Source: Coriobacteriia bacterium (GTDB lineage: Bacteria > Actinomycetota > Coriobacteriia > Anaerosomatales > Anaerosomataceae). Taken from it: DNA of 64,000 nucleotides. This document shows positions 15,931-64,000 of this stretch, piece after piece (position 1 is the first letter of the stretch; each line of letters begins with the position of its first letter). The notes below the pieces were generated by a model. That model had not been told where the DNA came from. It saw nothing but the letters and a program-made list of their open reading frames with translations, and searched no databases. Made by a program: the position numbers and the translations under genes. The stretch is taken from contig JAFGVD010000025.1 of the NCBI GenBank assembly GCA_016938135.1, positions 62,001-126,000 on the forward strand. The letters are read 5' to 3'.

Positions 15931-16183
15931 ACGGTCCACACCGTTCATCGAGTTTGTTCGCCAATTCACGAAAACCTTGCTATGATGTCAGTATAGTTAA
16001 TTTGCCATCAGACTAGAGCAGCTGCCTAAAGTAGCCATCATAGCTTGCCGATACAGCCCAGGGACCTGGAAAGCGTGTTTCTAGGTGAGCCGACCTGGAT
16101 GAGCTGGATCAGGCAACCATCACAATCGGAGGTGCTTCGTTCGGACATTCGTCCGTGCTTAGCTGGGGATTAGAAGGGAGTTG
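15931..16183 (+). promoter_or_regulatory. Non-coding leader of the cytochrome operon
   Basis: About 250 bases without an ORF before the NapC-like gene. AT-richer than its surroundings up to 16020, with possible -10 boxes TATGAT (15981-15986) and TATAGT (15992-15997) but no convincing -35. From about 16021 it is GC-rich with several local helices: TTGCC/GGCAA closing 16045-16115, CCTGG/CCAGG repeats, and a clear hairpin CGGAC-ATTC-GTCCG at 16142-16155 shortly before the ribosome-binding site GAAGGGAG. No known riboswitch consensus was recognised. Confidence 0.4.
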
Positions 16184-16693
16184 ATGCTCGTGAAGGAGAA
16201 GACTGAGGAGGATGTCGCCCAGGATGCAGCGCCCAAACGTAAGAAGCGGCTGTATATCTGGCTAGGCGTTCTTCTCGCGGTTGCTGTCATTGCAGTCGCT
16301 GCACTGGAGTACACGTCGTCGCCAGGATTCTGTGCGTCGTGTCACGAAATCGAGCCTTCAGTGGAGGGCTGGCGTGCGTCGGTACATGCGCAGGAAGATG
16401 CGGCAACGTGTCTGGATTGCCACGCTGACCCCGGTTTTGTTGGCGAGATGGTCGCGCATATCGGCGGTCTTCAGGAGGCATACGTGCATCTGACGGTGCA
16501 GCCTGAGGCCGAGGATATCTCCGGACTCGTGCCTGCTGAGCGTTGCTTGGAGTGCCACGAGGACGCATGGGCTGATGAGGCGTTCGCCGCCGATCACCCC
16601 ACCAAAGAGGCGCCATGTGCCGTGTGTCATCGCGATTCCATGCACACCAACGAGAAGCCCGTCTACATCCCCGCTGATGATGGAGGTGAGTAG
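16184..16693 (+). CDS. NapC/NrfH-like membrane tetraheme cytochrome c
   Basis: About 169 residues: a short cytoplasmic charged segment (KEKTEEDVAQ...KRKKR), one transmembrane anchor (about residues 25-45) and an extracytoplasmic domain with four CxxCH heme sites (CASCH, CLDCH, CLECH, CAVCH). The first lies in SPGFCASCHE, the usual NapC/NrfH opening after the anchor. Such proteins oxidise menaquinol and pass electrons to partner multiheme proteins. GAAGGGAG is 3 bases from this ATG and 9 from a GTG at 16190, so the GTG may be the true start. The partner cytochrome gene begins 3 bases after the stop. Confidence 0.9.
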   Translation: MLVKEKTEEDVAQDAAPKRKKRLYIWLGVLLAVAVIAVAALEYTSSPGFCASCHEIEPSVEGWRASVHAQEDAATCLDCHADPGFVGEMVAHIGGLQEAYVHLTVQPEAEDISGLVPAERCLECHEDAWADEAFAADHPTKEAPCAVCHRDSMHTNEKPVYIPADDGGE

Positions 16694-16696
16694 GCC

Positions 16697-18046
16697 GTGA
16701 CCATCAAACGACTGCTCACTGTTGCCTTTATCGCTGTTGCCGTGATGGCCGTTCTCGTGCTTGCCGGCTGCAGCTCTGAGCCCTTGGTAGCCGAGGCGGG
16801 ACAGGTGACGTGCGCCGGATGCCATACCGATCGAGAGATGCTGAAAGCAGACCTTGCGGCCAACCCGCTGCCTGTCGTTGAGGTGGCTGAGAGCTCTGGC
16901 GAAGGTTGAGGTGGGTCACTGCCTCCGGTGGAGGCCGACCTTGGCGCACTTGTAAGCATCGCTTTCTTTGATACCACGCACGGCAAGATGGACTGCCGTG
17001 ACTGCCATGGTGGCGAGAAGTTCGCTGCTACACGCGCCGAGGCCCACGAAGGTATGGAACCTCGTCCGTCGGCAACGTATGCCGAGTCGGTTTGTGCGCC
17101 TTGCCACAACGAGATGACCTCGACGTTCGCTACTAACATGCACGCAGATACCGCTGGCTGTTCGTCGCCTACGGACGCGCTCGTGCTGGCCCGTTCTACC
17201 AACGATGAAGCTGTGATCCAGGGCCTCGACAACAACTGCAGCACGTGTCACGTGTCCGGTTGCGGCGACTGCCACGTTTCTCGTCCGCAGTTCAACGATG
17301 GTGGCCTAGTACAGGGCCACGTGTTCTACGCCGAGCCGAACTCCTCGCTTAACTGCATGGGCTGCCATGGTAGCCGTATACAGAAGGAGTACACCGGTGC
17401 TGGCGAAAGCGAGAAGACCGTTCTGAAGGCAGACGTTCACTGGAGCCCCGGTGGCATGCAGTGTGTGGACTGCCATACGGTCGAGTGGATGCACGGCGGC
17501 GAAGAATATGACAATCGTTATGATTCGCCCGCCGCGCCCAAGTGTGTAGACTGCCACCCGGCAGACGACACGTTCCTCGCGATCGGGATGCACTCGAAGC
17601 ATGCTACGCCTGAGTCTAACACCTACCTGCAGTGCCAGGTCTGCCATGCGCAGGACTACAACAACTGCACTGCATGCCACGTGGCTCTCGACGAGAACGA
17701 TCTGCCGTTCTATGAGACCGAGTCGAGCGAGTTCGACTTTAACATCGGCCGCAACTACGCGCAGGACGACAGTCGTCCCTGGGACTATATCGTCGTCAGG
17801 CACGTCCCCGTGGCTGAAAGCACGTTCGACTTCTATGGCGAGGATGCGTTGGGCAACTACGACGCCGTTCCTACCTGGAAGTACGCTACGCCTCATTCCA
17901 TCCAGCGCGTCACGCGTCAGACCCAGGACGGCTGTTCCAGCTGTCACGGGAACCGGGACATCTTCCTCACCGAGGACGATCTTGCCGGACTGTCTGATCT
18001 TGAGCGTGCCGCTAACAAAGACGTGGTGCTAACCGAAGTCCCGTAG
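16697..18046 (+). CDS. 11-heme lipoprotein cytochrome c with an in-frame UGA (possible selenoprotein)
   Basis: Two open stretches lie in the same frame, 16697-16906 and 16910-18046, divided only by TGA at 16907-16909. The first holds a lipoprotein signal (residues 1-24, VLVLAGC) and one heme site, CAGCH. The second holds ten more CxxCH sites (CRDCH, CAPCH, CSTCH, CGDCH, CMGCH, CVDCH twice, CQVCH, CTACH, CSSCH) but has no signal peptide of its own, and the only nearby start is a GTG at 16928. Heme attachment needs export, so reading through the UGA (residue 71, in SSGEG-x-GGS) makes a sensible 449-residue protein. A SECIS-like hairpin follows the UGA. Alternatives: nonsense mutation or sequence error in a Gly-rich linker. 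Likely role: terminal or outer-surface electron transfer fed by the tetraheme protein upstream. No known multiheme family assigned. Confidence 0.8.
16907..16940 (+). promoter_or_regulatory. UGA codon with SECIS-like hairpin
   Basis: Directly behind the in-frame UGA a stem forms from GGTC (16914-16917) with GACC (16937-16940), an internal loop ACT/C, then GCCTCC (16921-16926) with GGAGGC (16930-16935) and apical loop GGT (16927-16929). In E. coli fdhF the SECIS apical GGU begins 18 bases after UGA; here it begins 17 bases after. A uridine (16920) lies in the asymmetric internal loop, roughly where SelB expects a bulged U, though not at the identical place. The region is GC-rich, so chance pairing is not excluded. 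Confidence 0.55.
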
Positions 18047-18077
18047 AGGGGACTCGGATCCAATGAAGGAGGAAGGC

Positions 18078-19103
18078 ATGACAAGTAAGAAATGGTTGTC
18101 GGTAGTGCTCGGCCTGGTTCTCGCGATGTCTCTGATCGTGGTTCCCGGTTGCTCCACCGACACGGAAACCCCGGCCGAGCCGGCTGTCTCCGAAGAGCCC
18201 GCAGTTGAGGCGTTTGACGCGTCGCAGGCAATGATCGATGCCGCCGCTGATTACTTCGGTAGCGAGCCGGTTCCCACGATCGCAGCTGCGGACCTGCTCA
18301 CGATCGTCACGAGCCAGGACCCCGGTTACCAGATCGTCTCTGTTCGTAGCGCTGAGGACTATGCAAAGGGTCACATCGAGGGTGCCATCAATATCCCCTT
18401 TGCGACCATCGCTGATGAAGAGAACCTGGCCAAGCTCGACCCGAACAAGAAGATCGTCGTGGTCTGCTACACCGGCCACACCGCGTCTGAGGCCAACATG
18501 TTCTACAACATGCTCGGTTATGATGCGATCACTCTGAAGTTCGGTATGTCCGGTTGGACGAACGACGAGGAAGTCTATGCCCTTGGCGCCCTGCCGAGCG
18601 GCAAGGCTGCTGGCTATCCCACGACGACCGAGGTTCCTGCTGCAACCGGCGGCTTCGATCTCCCGGCCGTTGCTTCGGACTACGAAGATGTTCGTGCCGC
18701 GATCATCGGTCAGGCTGAGGCCTACTTCGCCTCTGGGCTGCCCTTCACCATCTCTGCTGAGGACGTGTACAACATCGTCCAGTCGCAGGACCCCGGCTAC
18801 CAGATCCTGTCGGTCCGTGCCAGTGACGTTTACGCCGCCGGTCACCTCGAGGGTGCGATCAACGCTCCTTGGACCACAGTCGCCGATCCGGCCGTTCTGG
18901 CTCAGCTCGATCCCAACAAGAAGGTCATCGTCTACTGCTACACCGGTCACACCGGTGGCGAGGTAACCATGTTCCTCAACCTCATGGGCTATGAAGCTAT
19001 CAACATGAAGTTCGGTATGTCCGGTTGGAACAGCGACGAGGCAGTTGGCGGAAACGCCGGCTACGATCCTTCGACGGTCGTTGCCAACCCTGTCGTCCAG
19101 TAG
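18078..19103 (+). CDS. Lipoprotein with two rhodanese domains
   Basis: A 341-residue lipoprotein: signal peptide with lipobox VVPGC (about residue 25), an acidic spacer rich in Glu, Pro and Thr, then two homologous rhodanese domains (about residues 60-175 and 205-335). Each has the pattern QDPGYQI-SVR, GH-EGAIN, LDPNKK and a CYTGHT active loop with Cys at residues 130 and 287. Both catalytic cysteines are kept, so both domains could carry a persulfide or selenide. Start at 18078 because GAAGGAGGAAGG lies just before it. It follows the 11-heme gene by 31 bases and is closed by a terminator, so it is the last gene of the cytochrome operon. Confidence 0.92.
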   Translation: MTSKKWLSVVLGLVLAMSLIVVPGCSTDTETPAEPAVSEEPAVEAFDASQAMIDAAADYFGSEPVPTIAAADLLTIVTSQDPGYQIVSVRSAEDYAKGHIEGAINIPFATIADEENLAKLDPNKKIVVVCYTGHTASEANMFYNMLGYDAITLKFGMSGWTNDEEVYALGALPSGKAAGYPTTTEVPAATGGFDLPAVASDYEDVRAAIIGQAEAYFASGLPFTISAEDVYNIVQSQDPGYQILSVRASDVYAAGHLEGAINAPWTTVADPAVLAQLDPNKKVIVYCYTGHTGGEVTMFLNLMGYEAINMKFGMSGWNSDEAVGGNAGYDPSTVVANPVVQ

Positions 19104-19676: not shown

Positions 19677-19793
19677 GATGCTGGAGTCCGGGTCCGGGCG
19701 GCGGTATGTCGTGAATCTGGTCAGATCCGGAAGGAAGCAGCCATAAGCGGCCTCTGCCGGGTGTCCGGATCCGGTCTCGAGCACCGAAGCATC
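19677..19793 (+). ncRNA. ffs: Signal recognition particle RNA (small bacterial 4.5S type)
   Basis: The universally conserved domain IV core is present at about 19711-19748: GTGAATCTGGTCAG, then TCCGGAAGGAAGCAGCC. Flanking sequences pair into the long rod of a bacterial 4.5S RNA: GATGCT (19677-19682) with AGCATC (19788-19793), and further in CCGGGTCCGGG with CCGGGTGTCCGG. The length of about 117 bases and the lack of an Alu domain fit the small type. It precedes dnaX, a very common arrangement. A TATACT box lies at 19656-19661. Ends are estimated from pairing, within several bases. Confidence 0.93.
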
Positions 19794-62057: not shown

Positions 62058-62203
62058 TTGATAACCACTGTGACGGGTATCACAAATCAGGAGTGTGTGC
62101 ATGCTGCACCGCGATTTCAAAGCCGACACATAGGTTCGATGGGAAGCTGAGATCCCCCGATGCACGTCGCGGTCACCTTCTGTCGGGGGGGAGCTAGCGG
62201 TGA
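62058..62203 (+). promoter_or_regulatory. Structured leader, riboswitch-like, class not identified
   Basis: Part of the only gap over 300 bases in the window (61982-62307). After the lon terminator the RNA can form AAATC/GATTT around hairpin GTGCA-TGC-TGCAC, a helix ACCGCGA (62108-62114) / TCGCGGT (62167-62173), and an inner hairpin GGGA...TCCC (62141-62156). GGTCACC (62171-62177) can pair instead with GGTGA-GA-CC (62199-62207), which overlaps both the first helix and the following terminator. Such mutually exclusive helices ahead of a terminator are what an attenuator needs. No known aptamer consensus fits well. Confidence 0.5.
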
Positions 62204-62227
62204 GACCGGCCCTGATCAGGGCCGGTC
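62204..62227 (+). terminator. Terminator hairpin in the leader (possible attenuator)
   Basis: A perfect palindrome GACCGGCCC-TGATCA-GGGCCGGTC followed by TTTGTGCTTT. It ends 80 bases before the start of the secreted-protein gene, so it would stop transcription inside the leader unless an upstream helix takes up its 5' strand. Confidence 0.8.
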
Positions 62228-62307: not shown

Positions 62308-64000
62308 ATGCTTATATCGCATCGGCGCAGACAGCGCAGACTGGTCCCACTGCTGGTAGTCATCGCGATGATACTGGCGATGAACGCGCCAGGTCTCACG
62401 GCATTTGCCAATGAGGTCGCACCAGCAGAGGTCGAGTCGAGCGCTGTCGCACCACAGGAGGAAGGAGCCAGCGTCCCGGAGGAGGCCGCAAAGAAGCCTT
62501 CGGTACCGGACAAGGTGCTCAAAGACGCTGAAGCTCCACTTGAGGCGCCGGCTGAAGAGGATGAAGTGATCGGTTCAGTCGAGGTCGCCCCGGTTACCGC
62601 TGAGCCGTTGCAGCTTGAGGTGGCTGCGGCGCCGGTGGTCGAACCACAAGATGTGGAGGCGCAGGTCGTCTATCCATATGCAGATGTGGGTGCGGTACAG
62701 CTTGAGGGTTGGGACCGCACTCCTCATGAGCGGTGGACTAGCGGAAATGTCAGCGGGTACGTCGAGGGGGAGTGGATACCGTTCCGTCTCAAGATCGATA
62801 ACGGCGGAGGCTCCGCTGTTACAGTCCGGGTGCCTTCTATGACCTACAAGGTCGACCACATTCTTGGCGGTGCCGTGGCAGTAGACGCGACCAAGGGTTG
62901 GCGGTGGGAGACCAGCGGTGGCGCGTCCGGCATCTATACCCCGACTACACAGGATGATGCTTCTGATCCTATGTATCTTAGGACGCGTCTGCCCGAGGCC
63001 TCAGGATTCGTTCTTGCTAAGGGTGAGACCGGCTATATCTACTTCGAGGGGCACCTGGCGATCACGCCCTTCTGGCAGATGATGTTGCCACCGCTTCTGG
63101 GTGCATCGGGCTATGCGGGTGCCAGCGCGCAGGCTCGACTTGTGGCGTGGAACGACGCCAACATCGGTGATCGTACCGTACCGTTCCCCGTTGGTCTCCA
63201 GACCCTGCCAAACGGCGGCATCTGCGGATTGAAGTTCGCCGATCTTGATGGCGATGGGCGGATGGATACCGGCGAGGGGCCGCTCGGCGGATGGGAGTTC
63301 CATCTTGAGTACAAAGAGTCCCCGTTCGGGTTTGTGCTGACGGCTACTTCAGCATCCAATGGAACCTTCTCGTTCGCGAATCTGCCTCCAGGGACCTATG
63401 AGCTTACCGAGGTCGCCAAGGACGGTTGGGTGAGCACGAACCTGCCCAAGACCATTGAGGTCGCAGGTGTGAGGGTTGGTCCGGTTTATGTGGGCAACCA
63501 GCCTCGCGTGGTCACCAAGACGTGGGCGCTGGAGCTTTCCGATGCAGTGCCGATGGCTGACTCCTACTTCGTGCGCTACGTCATGGGCGACGGGTCTCAC
63601 GACCTGGCTCTCCAGATGCACGATGGTGTCTACAAGGCCCACATGGACGTCATGTGGGGAGCGACCATCACCAGCTGGCAGTTCTTTGCCATGATGGGGT
63701 CCGAGGAGATCCCGCTCAGCGGCGTCATGGGCCCTGCCGAGCGGATGGTGGAGTCACGCACCAACAGCCACTTGTTCACGCCGGGTGTCATAGGCGGGTA
63801 TAAGTGGATCAGCACCGCCGCCGCCCAGATCCCGGGCGTTGGCTGGACTATCGAGCTCTATCGTGATGGCGTGCTCTATGACACGGCTGTCACGGGCGAC
63901 GACGGGATGTATGAGTTCTCAGGCCTGTTGCCTGGTTCCTACACCCTCAAAGAAGTCGCGCAAGACGAGTACATGAAGATCATCCCTGTAGGAGACTGGC
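62308..64000 (+). CDS. Large secreted protein with prealbumin-like (SdrD/SpaA-type) repeats, partial
   Basis: Open from the ATG (GGGAAGGGAGGGACG upstream) to the window end, 564 codons without stop. A signal peptide (VPLLVVIAMILAMNAPGLTAFA) is followed by an acidic Ala/Glu/Pro-rich spacer, then a globular region with WDRTPHERWTSGNVSGY. From about residue 305 there is a carboxypeptidase-regulatory/SdrD-B-like repeat: GLKFADLDGDGRMDTGEGPLGGWEF ending NLPPGTYELTEVAKDGWV. A second begins near residue 500 (GWTIELYRDGVLY) ending LLPGSYTLKEVAQDE. Such repeats form stiff rods in surface adhesins. Cell-wall anchoring cannot be judged because the C-terminus is missing. Confidence 0.85.
   Translation, partial: MLISHRRRQRRLVPLLVVIAMILAMNAPGLTAFANEVAPAEVESSAVAPQEEGASVPEEAAKKPSVPDKVLKDAEAPLEAPAEEDEVIGSVEVAPVTAEPLQLEVAAAPVVEPQDVEAQVVYPYADVGAVQLEGWDRTPHERWTSGNVSGYVEGEWIPFRLKIDNGGGSAVTVRVPSMTYKVDHILGGAVAVDATKGWRWETSGGASGIYTPTTQDDASDPMYLRTRLPEASGFVLAKGETGYIYFEGHLAITPFWQMMLPPLLGASGYAGASAQARLVAWNDANIGDRTVPFPVGLQTLPNGGICGLKFADLDGDGRMDTGEGPLGGWEFHLEYKESPFGFVLTATSASNGTFSFANLPPGTYELTEVAKDGWVSTNLPKTIEVAGVRVGPVYVGNQPRVVTKTWALELSDAVPMADSYFVRYVMGDGSHDLALQMHDGVYKAHMDVMWGATITSWQFFAMMGSEEIPLSGVMGPAERMVESRTNSHLFTPGVIGGYKWISTAAAQIPGVGWTIELYRDGVLYDTAVTGDDGMYEFSGLLPGSYTLKEVAQDEYMKIIPVGDW

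Follow-up and report, generated by a model that had tools for sequence, protein, structure and literature searches.

Three genes follow each other on the + strand in the window, that is, in the whole 64,000-nucleotide stretch of Coriobacteriia DNA analysed here: a NapC/NrfH-type gene (16181–16693), a gene for a putative selenocysteine (Sec)-containing multiheme cytochrome (16697–18046) and a gene for a rhodanese lipoprotein (18063–19103). The second of them begins with a GTG start codon at position 16697, just downstream of the ribosome-binding site GGAGGTG, and its frame is open throughout with the only exception of TGA at 16907–16909, which corresponds to residue 71. The lipobox LAGC, with Gly-Cys at residues 24–25 (16766–16771), marks the predicted lipidation site (Cys25) of an exported protein, and the first CxxCH site, CAGCH (residues 39–43, 16811–16825), also lies 5′ of the UGA. 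Ten others are found in the part after the UGA (16928–18046), giving a total of eleven, and residue 71 itself belongs to a Gly-rich segment, GEGUGG (residues 68–73, 16898–16915), between heme 1 and heme 2. Judging from the sequence and the ORF listing, the post-UGA part, which has no signal peptide, is probably not a separate gene. A lipoprotein signal and one CxxCH before the UGA, ten sites after it, a single frame and a downstream ORF devoid of signal peptide had already been noticed in the sequence-only reading that preceded this work, and all of this was confirmed. The export signal, eleven CxxCH sites and a 52-bit match to PF14522 assign the product to multiheme c-type cytochromes. Ratios of pN/pS estimated against the nearest relative were below 1 on either side of the UGA (0.25 and 0.19). 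A profile search of solved structures found no relative, and AlphaFold predictions made with 9 and 20 sequences (mean pLDDT 36.6 and 45.7, respectively) were not used for fold searches.

In total, 22 homologues were found, 21 with UGA at this codon and one with Cys. The 21 full or near-full UGA-type loci belong to 20 actinobacterial genomes of three classes: Coriobacteriia, some of them named Anaerosomatales, contribute 11 loci in 10 genomes (with the window's own), while 10 loci in 10 genomes come from two other actinobacterial classes. The contig scan for homologues was confined to Coriobacteriia and unclassified Actinomycetota bins. The UGA is kept down to about 38% identity, GEGUGG forms the core of every Sec form, and G-[Sec/Cys]-G-G is invariant in a 20-row alignment, where one row has Cys for Sec. 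This only Cys homologue (L056, G452:C235) carries the motif GGCGG in a truncated gene cut by the end of a low-GC (38%) contig, which could be a binning error in genome G452. When the whole class was searched for GGNGARGGNTGHGGNGGN, many matches arose by chance; among the 30 loci that were translated, CxxCH sites around the motif were present only in members of the Sec cytochrome family. Comparison of orthologues at this position, proposed in the sequence-only reading as a means to discriminate between Sec and mutation, speaks in favour of Sec. One genome bin (G141) contained two differing copies of the Sec cytochrome gene (L034 and L036) on separate contigs, which represent either paralogues or two strains.

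A SECIS-like hairpin was detected by comparison and statistics at 16920–16935 (+), with the stem 16921–16926/16930–16935 and the loop GGU (16927–16929). Every copy has, after the UGA, a hairpin with the geometry of bacterial SECIS elements, and its loop with G and U is located at positions of about 20–26, if U of the UGA is taken as 1. In the SECIS element of E. coli fdhF, SelB contacts G23 and U24, and the position of G/U in the loop described here is similar. The commonest stem is UGCCUC/GAGGC(A). In L022 it is changed to UUCCUC/GAGGA with replacement of the pair 15–29 from G-C to U-A, and in L093 to UGCCGC/GCGGCA with replacement of the pair 18–26 from U-A to G-C. Where Glu-Ala is substituted by Gly-Pro, the register of the stem is shifted by one base (GCCCC-AGUU-GGGGC), and in the f50 family the stem is wholly different, being either UGGCACCG/CGGUGCCA or UGGUGCC/GGCACCA. 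Loci L055 and L097 have GGCAC/GUGCC and GGUGC/GCACC, respectively. In the fixed-register set of 13 sequences 91% of cells are paired and two pairs are altered on both sides, while slid versions of the same set give no more than 59% pairing. For nine clade representatives the combined Fisher p was about 2e-9 against synonymous recoding and about 2e-8 against other positions in these genes, both values being optimistic, since the representatives are related and p assumes independence. Single sequences are often unremarkable for their coding content, and for the window's own hairpin P was 0.10 and 0.04. The score based on stem length only was not significant per sequence in the Coriobacteriia set, which changed with the diverse set. 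Among 418 twelve-codon windows the excess of codon identity was greatest at residues 70–81, i.e. exactly at the UGA and the hairpin. The Rfam search revealed no riboswitch or known element upstream of the UGA or at it; a PYLIS_3 match of 18.9 bits (cut-off 38) was discarded as noise. Weak in single sequences and strong jointly, these data strongly support the hairpin as a candidate SECIS that would direct insertion of Sec.

The machinery required for such decoding is encoded in the window's own genome (2.13 Mb, 99% complete), where selA, selB, the gene of tRNA-Sec and a Sec-type selD are found on one contig, as the sequence-only reading had suggested to check. The score of selB is 376 bits (cut-off 242), tRNA-Sec scores 65.8 bits and has the anticodon TCA according to ARAGORN. 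The selD gene (L051, G000:C49) has its own in-frame UGA in the context KAGUAAK, the Sec site of SelD being given as UxxK in a recent review (PMC13188914), and is, therefore, a predicted second selenoprotein gene of this genome. Outside Coriobacteriia selB exceeded the cut-off in all ten genomes carrying the Sec cytochrome. Within Coriobacteriia it was found in 28 of the 32 genomes tested, carriers or not; its near-universal presence in this class is permissive for Sec decoding, not diagnostic of it. Two carriers, G026 and G141, which are 85–86% complete MAGs, and G452 with its Cys form showed no selB above the cut-off. In G911 the Sec cytochrome gene lies about 3 kb from selA-selB. As far as can be judged from comparative data, the assignment of the UGA at codon 71 as a Sec codon, which would be read by SelB and tRNA-Sec, is strongly supported.

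The alternative that survives best at the level of decoding, very improbable as it is, takes the UGA for a true stop and assumes a conserved operon, in which a short monoheme lipoprotein is followed by a separate ten-heme protein translated by reinitiation. A GTG codon is indeed available 18 nt after the UGA, and the same possibility was left open in 2007 (PMC1914089) for ExtKL (GSU2937-2936) of Geobacter, predicted since that time as a Sec multiheme cytochrome (PMC1914089, PMC5877670). However, the possible restart codon varies between homologues (GTG or TTG), while GEG-U-GG is the most conserved part of the region and no indels separate the UGA from the next conserved residues in aligned homologues. 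The post-UGA part has no export signal of its own, which counts against two separate proteins. In the f50 family the pre-UGA part is not a short lipoprotein, but a 540-residue protein with S-layer homology (SLH) and rhodanese domains, which has a single CxxCH at its end, and in the Cys homologue the frame is continuous across the position of interest. Finally, a SECIS-like hairpin is conserved here, unlike ExtKL, for which no SECIS was found in 2007 (PMC1914089). Still less credible is decoding of the UGA as some other amino acid, for instance Trp, by near-cognate suppression without Sec machinery. Against it, TGA is an ordinary stop here, terminating 20 of 36 long, codon-biased ORFs of the window, selABCD are present in the genome, a SECIS-like hairpin and a Cys replacement are seen, and in G908 the cytochrome gene is placed between selA-selB and tRNA-Sec. 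A change of GGA to TGA by mutation or sequencing error, which the sequence-only reading regarded as the main rival in view of Gly-rich flanks, is refuted to a negligible chance by the presence of the same TGA in 21 loci of three classes from many separate assemblies and by the lack of Gly or Ser at this position among all 22 homologues. Thus, the segment 16697–18046 is, with high confidence, one gene predicted from sequence to encode an 11-heme c-type cytochrome, exported and lipid-anchored, with the UGA of codon 71 decoded as Sec; this confidence concerns the identity of the Sec cytochrome, not its substrate.

Genes adjacent to the cytochrome gene give some hints to its function. The upstream gene (16181–16693, likely start ATG at 16184) is predicted to encode a membrane-anchored tetraheme quinol dehydrogenase of the NapC/NrfH type: it scores 67 bits with the NrfH model, which is under the cut-off of 134, and 57 bits with PF03264 (NapC/NirT), which passes the cut-off. 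NrfH/NapC quinol dehydrogenases likewise serve as membrane-anchored tetraheme partners; here such a partner is placed upstream or fused, and what it accompanies is not NrfA. In-frame fusion with the Sec cytochrome was observed in L022, L024 and L025, and as far as seen the adjacent or fused NapC/NrfH-type partner is a feature of Coriobacteriia only. The downstream gene (18063–19103, likely start ATG at 18078) encodes a two-domain rhodanese lipoprotein, which matches PF00581 in two stretches (114 bits) and has the active-site loop CYTGHT in both domains. Downstream location of the rhodanese is typical of the window's Coriobacteriia family and of L032; in the class of G575 it is located upstream in five loci with flanks (L106–L110), while in f50 (L055, L111, L112, L114) it is fused in-frame to the N-terminus of the cytochrome behind S-layer homology domains, the CYTGHT loop being confined to a single rhodanese domain in these fused proteins. 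In one of these variants or another the extracytoplasmic rhodanese accompanies the Sec cytochrome in most lineages. The link is not universal, since in f5 (G060), where the NapC/NrfH-type part is fused to the Sec cytochrome, no rhodanese gene adjoins it. In L111 (7742–10897, G908) and L112 (G911) SLH domains, rhodanese and Sec cytochrome form one polypeptide encoded beside selA-selB. A gene of the bacterial small SRP RNA (19685–19780, +) is located in the window just 5′ of dnaX, and the same RNA follows the operon in L029, L030 and L032 as well, indicating that the operon occupies a conserved chromosomal place. Another structured RNA of the window, a c-di-GMP-II-GAG riboswitch at 62133–62218 (+; 54.4 bits, cut-off 40), precedes a long surface-protein-like ORF, which has its probable start near 62309 and continues beyond the end of the window.

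Rhodaneses use a Cys residue to carry sulfane sulfur, and the job of the Sec cytochrome probably lies in extracellular chemistry of sulfur or selenium. One may assume that in Coriobacteriia the NapC/NrfH-type partner would hand electrons of quinol over to the hemes, while the rhodanese would build its persulfide from a sulfur compound found outside the cell, such as thiosulfate or polysulfide, or from its selenium analogue. The selenol arm of Sec71 might then accept the sulfane atom from the rhodanese in a way comparable with the GGCGG arm of SoxY, and the hemes would reduce this atom off the arm to sulfide or selenide. Tentatively, and somewhat short of an even chance, the whole set can be viewed as a small surface reductase of sulfur or selenium compounds, with the rhodanese as chalcogen donor and Sec as the reactive group. 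Its more specific version, in which an exported chalcogen reductase takes sulfane sulfur or selenium from the dedicated rhodanese by Sec on a SoxY-like Gly-rich arm and reduces it by hemes, is rather unlikely in all its details taken together. Experiments have established the SoxY arm as a carrier of sulfur (PMC6067878, PMC5336275); it holds the chalcogen residue in the context Gly-Gly-X-Gly-Gly outside the cytoplasmic membrane, and the Cys form in L056 is exactly GGCGG. The resemblance is limited to the motif, which is C-terminal in SoxY and internal here, and is, therefore, suggestive only; no SoxY domain was found in Pfam scans. Anaerosoma tenue, a member of the same order, respires thiosulfate and sulfur, and a molybdoenzyme was proposed for this process (PMC9686372). 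Quinones were undetected in Anaerosomatales isolates (PMC9686372), which weighs against a simple route from quinol.

It is also possible, if doubtful, that the same Sec cytochrome transfers electrons to extracellular acceptors or reduces selenite or tellurite like the Ext cytochromes, with Sec serving as a heme ligand or redox switch and the rhodanese as a source of selenium or simply as protection. The ext cluster of Geobacter does combine the predicted Sec cytochrome ExtKL with a rhodanese-like protein, ExtH (PMC5877670), there is a Fe(III) reducer among Anaerosomatales isolates (PMC9686372), and models of ExtN (NF040967) and ExtO (NF040968), the former representing a decaheme cytochrome of this cluster, show weak similarity to the ten-heme part (for ExtN 42.2 bits, E about 4e-11, whereas its curated cut-off is 200 bits). 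On the other hand, neither a porin nor a Rieske or cytochrome b partner was seen in the vicinity of the gene, Sec occupies a Gly-rich linker and not a heme-binding motif, and the partner that recurs is a rhodanese with two domains. NF040968, designated FeS_ExtO, is a model of 416 positions, which hits the ten-heme region also matched by ExtN, and with nearly equal score; according to its description, ExtO is a Rieske protein of 14 kDa (PMC5877670), so that the model looks mislabelled. ExtN and ExtO are not described as Sec proteins in the literature examined. ExtKL (NF040886) itself is similar to the Sec cytochrome in being an exported multiheme protein with one in-frame UGA and a rhodanese-like protein in its cluster, but it has five N-terminal hemes plus a further C-terminal portion of unknown nature instead of 1 + 10 hemes around the UGA, and NF040886 matched neither the Sec cytochrome (E up to 10) nor distant members of its family (E up to 0.01). 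The Sec form of the octaheme tetrathionate-reductase-family cytochrome (TIGR04315, PMC13188914) is a multiheme selenoprotein as well, but with eight hemes, and its model gave no match with E up to 10.

The sequence-only reading had supposed that a Sec-containing multiheme cytochrome would be new. In principle such proteins are not unprecedented, ExtKL having been predicted as one of them already in 2007 (PMC1914089, PMC5877670). A review published in 2026 lists 119 prokaryotic selenoprotein families, among which the multiheme entries are ExtKL and the octaheme cytochrome, together with a family of CXXCH-containing beta-barrel proteins (PMC13188914). The 11-heme family is absent among these 119, which include the families of Haft and Tolstoy 2025, no curated model matched it at its cut-off, and the open-access literature examined for Sec multiheme cytochromes contained only ExtKL and the octaheme entry. 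Apparently, the 11-heme cytochrome represents a new selenoprotein family within Sec multiheme cytochromes, a prior description of which was not found in open-access literature. Gene callers split the gene at the UGA, leaving a ten-heme protein without signal peptide, so that standard annotation would largely miss the family. Few multiheme cytochromes have Sec, and no role of selenium was found for any of them in the literature examined; the recurrent link or fusion with rhodanese suggests, in concrete and testable form, what the selenium of such proteins may do. It hints at a yet unrecognized metabolism of sulfur or selenium in Actinomycetota that are mostly uncultured, and the chalcogen reductase, if true, would provide these bacteria with a way to respire sulfur or selenium that needs no molybdenum.
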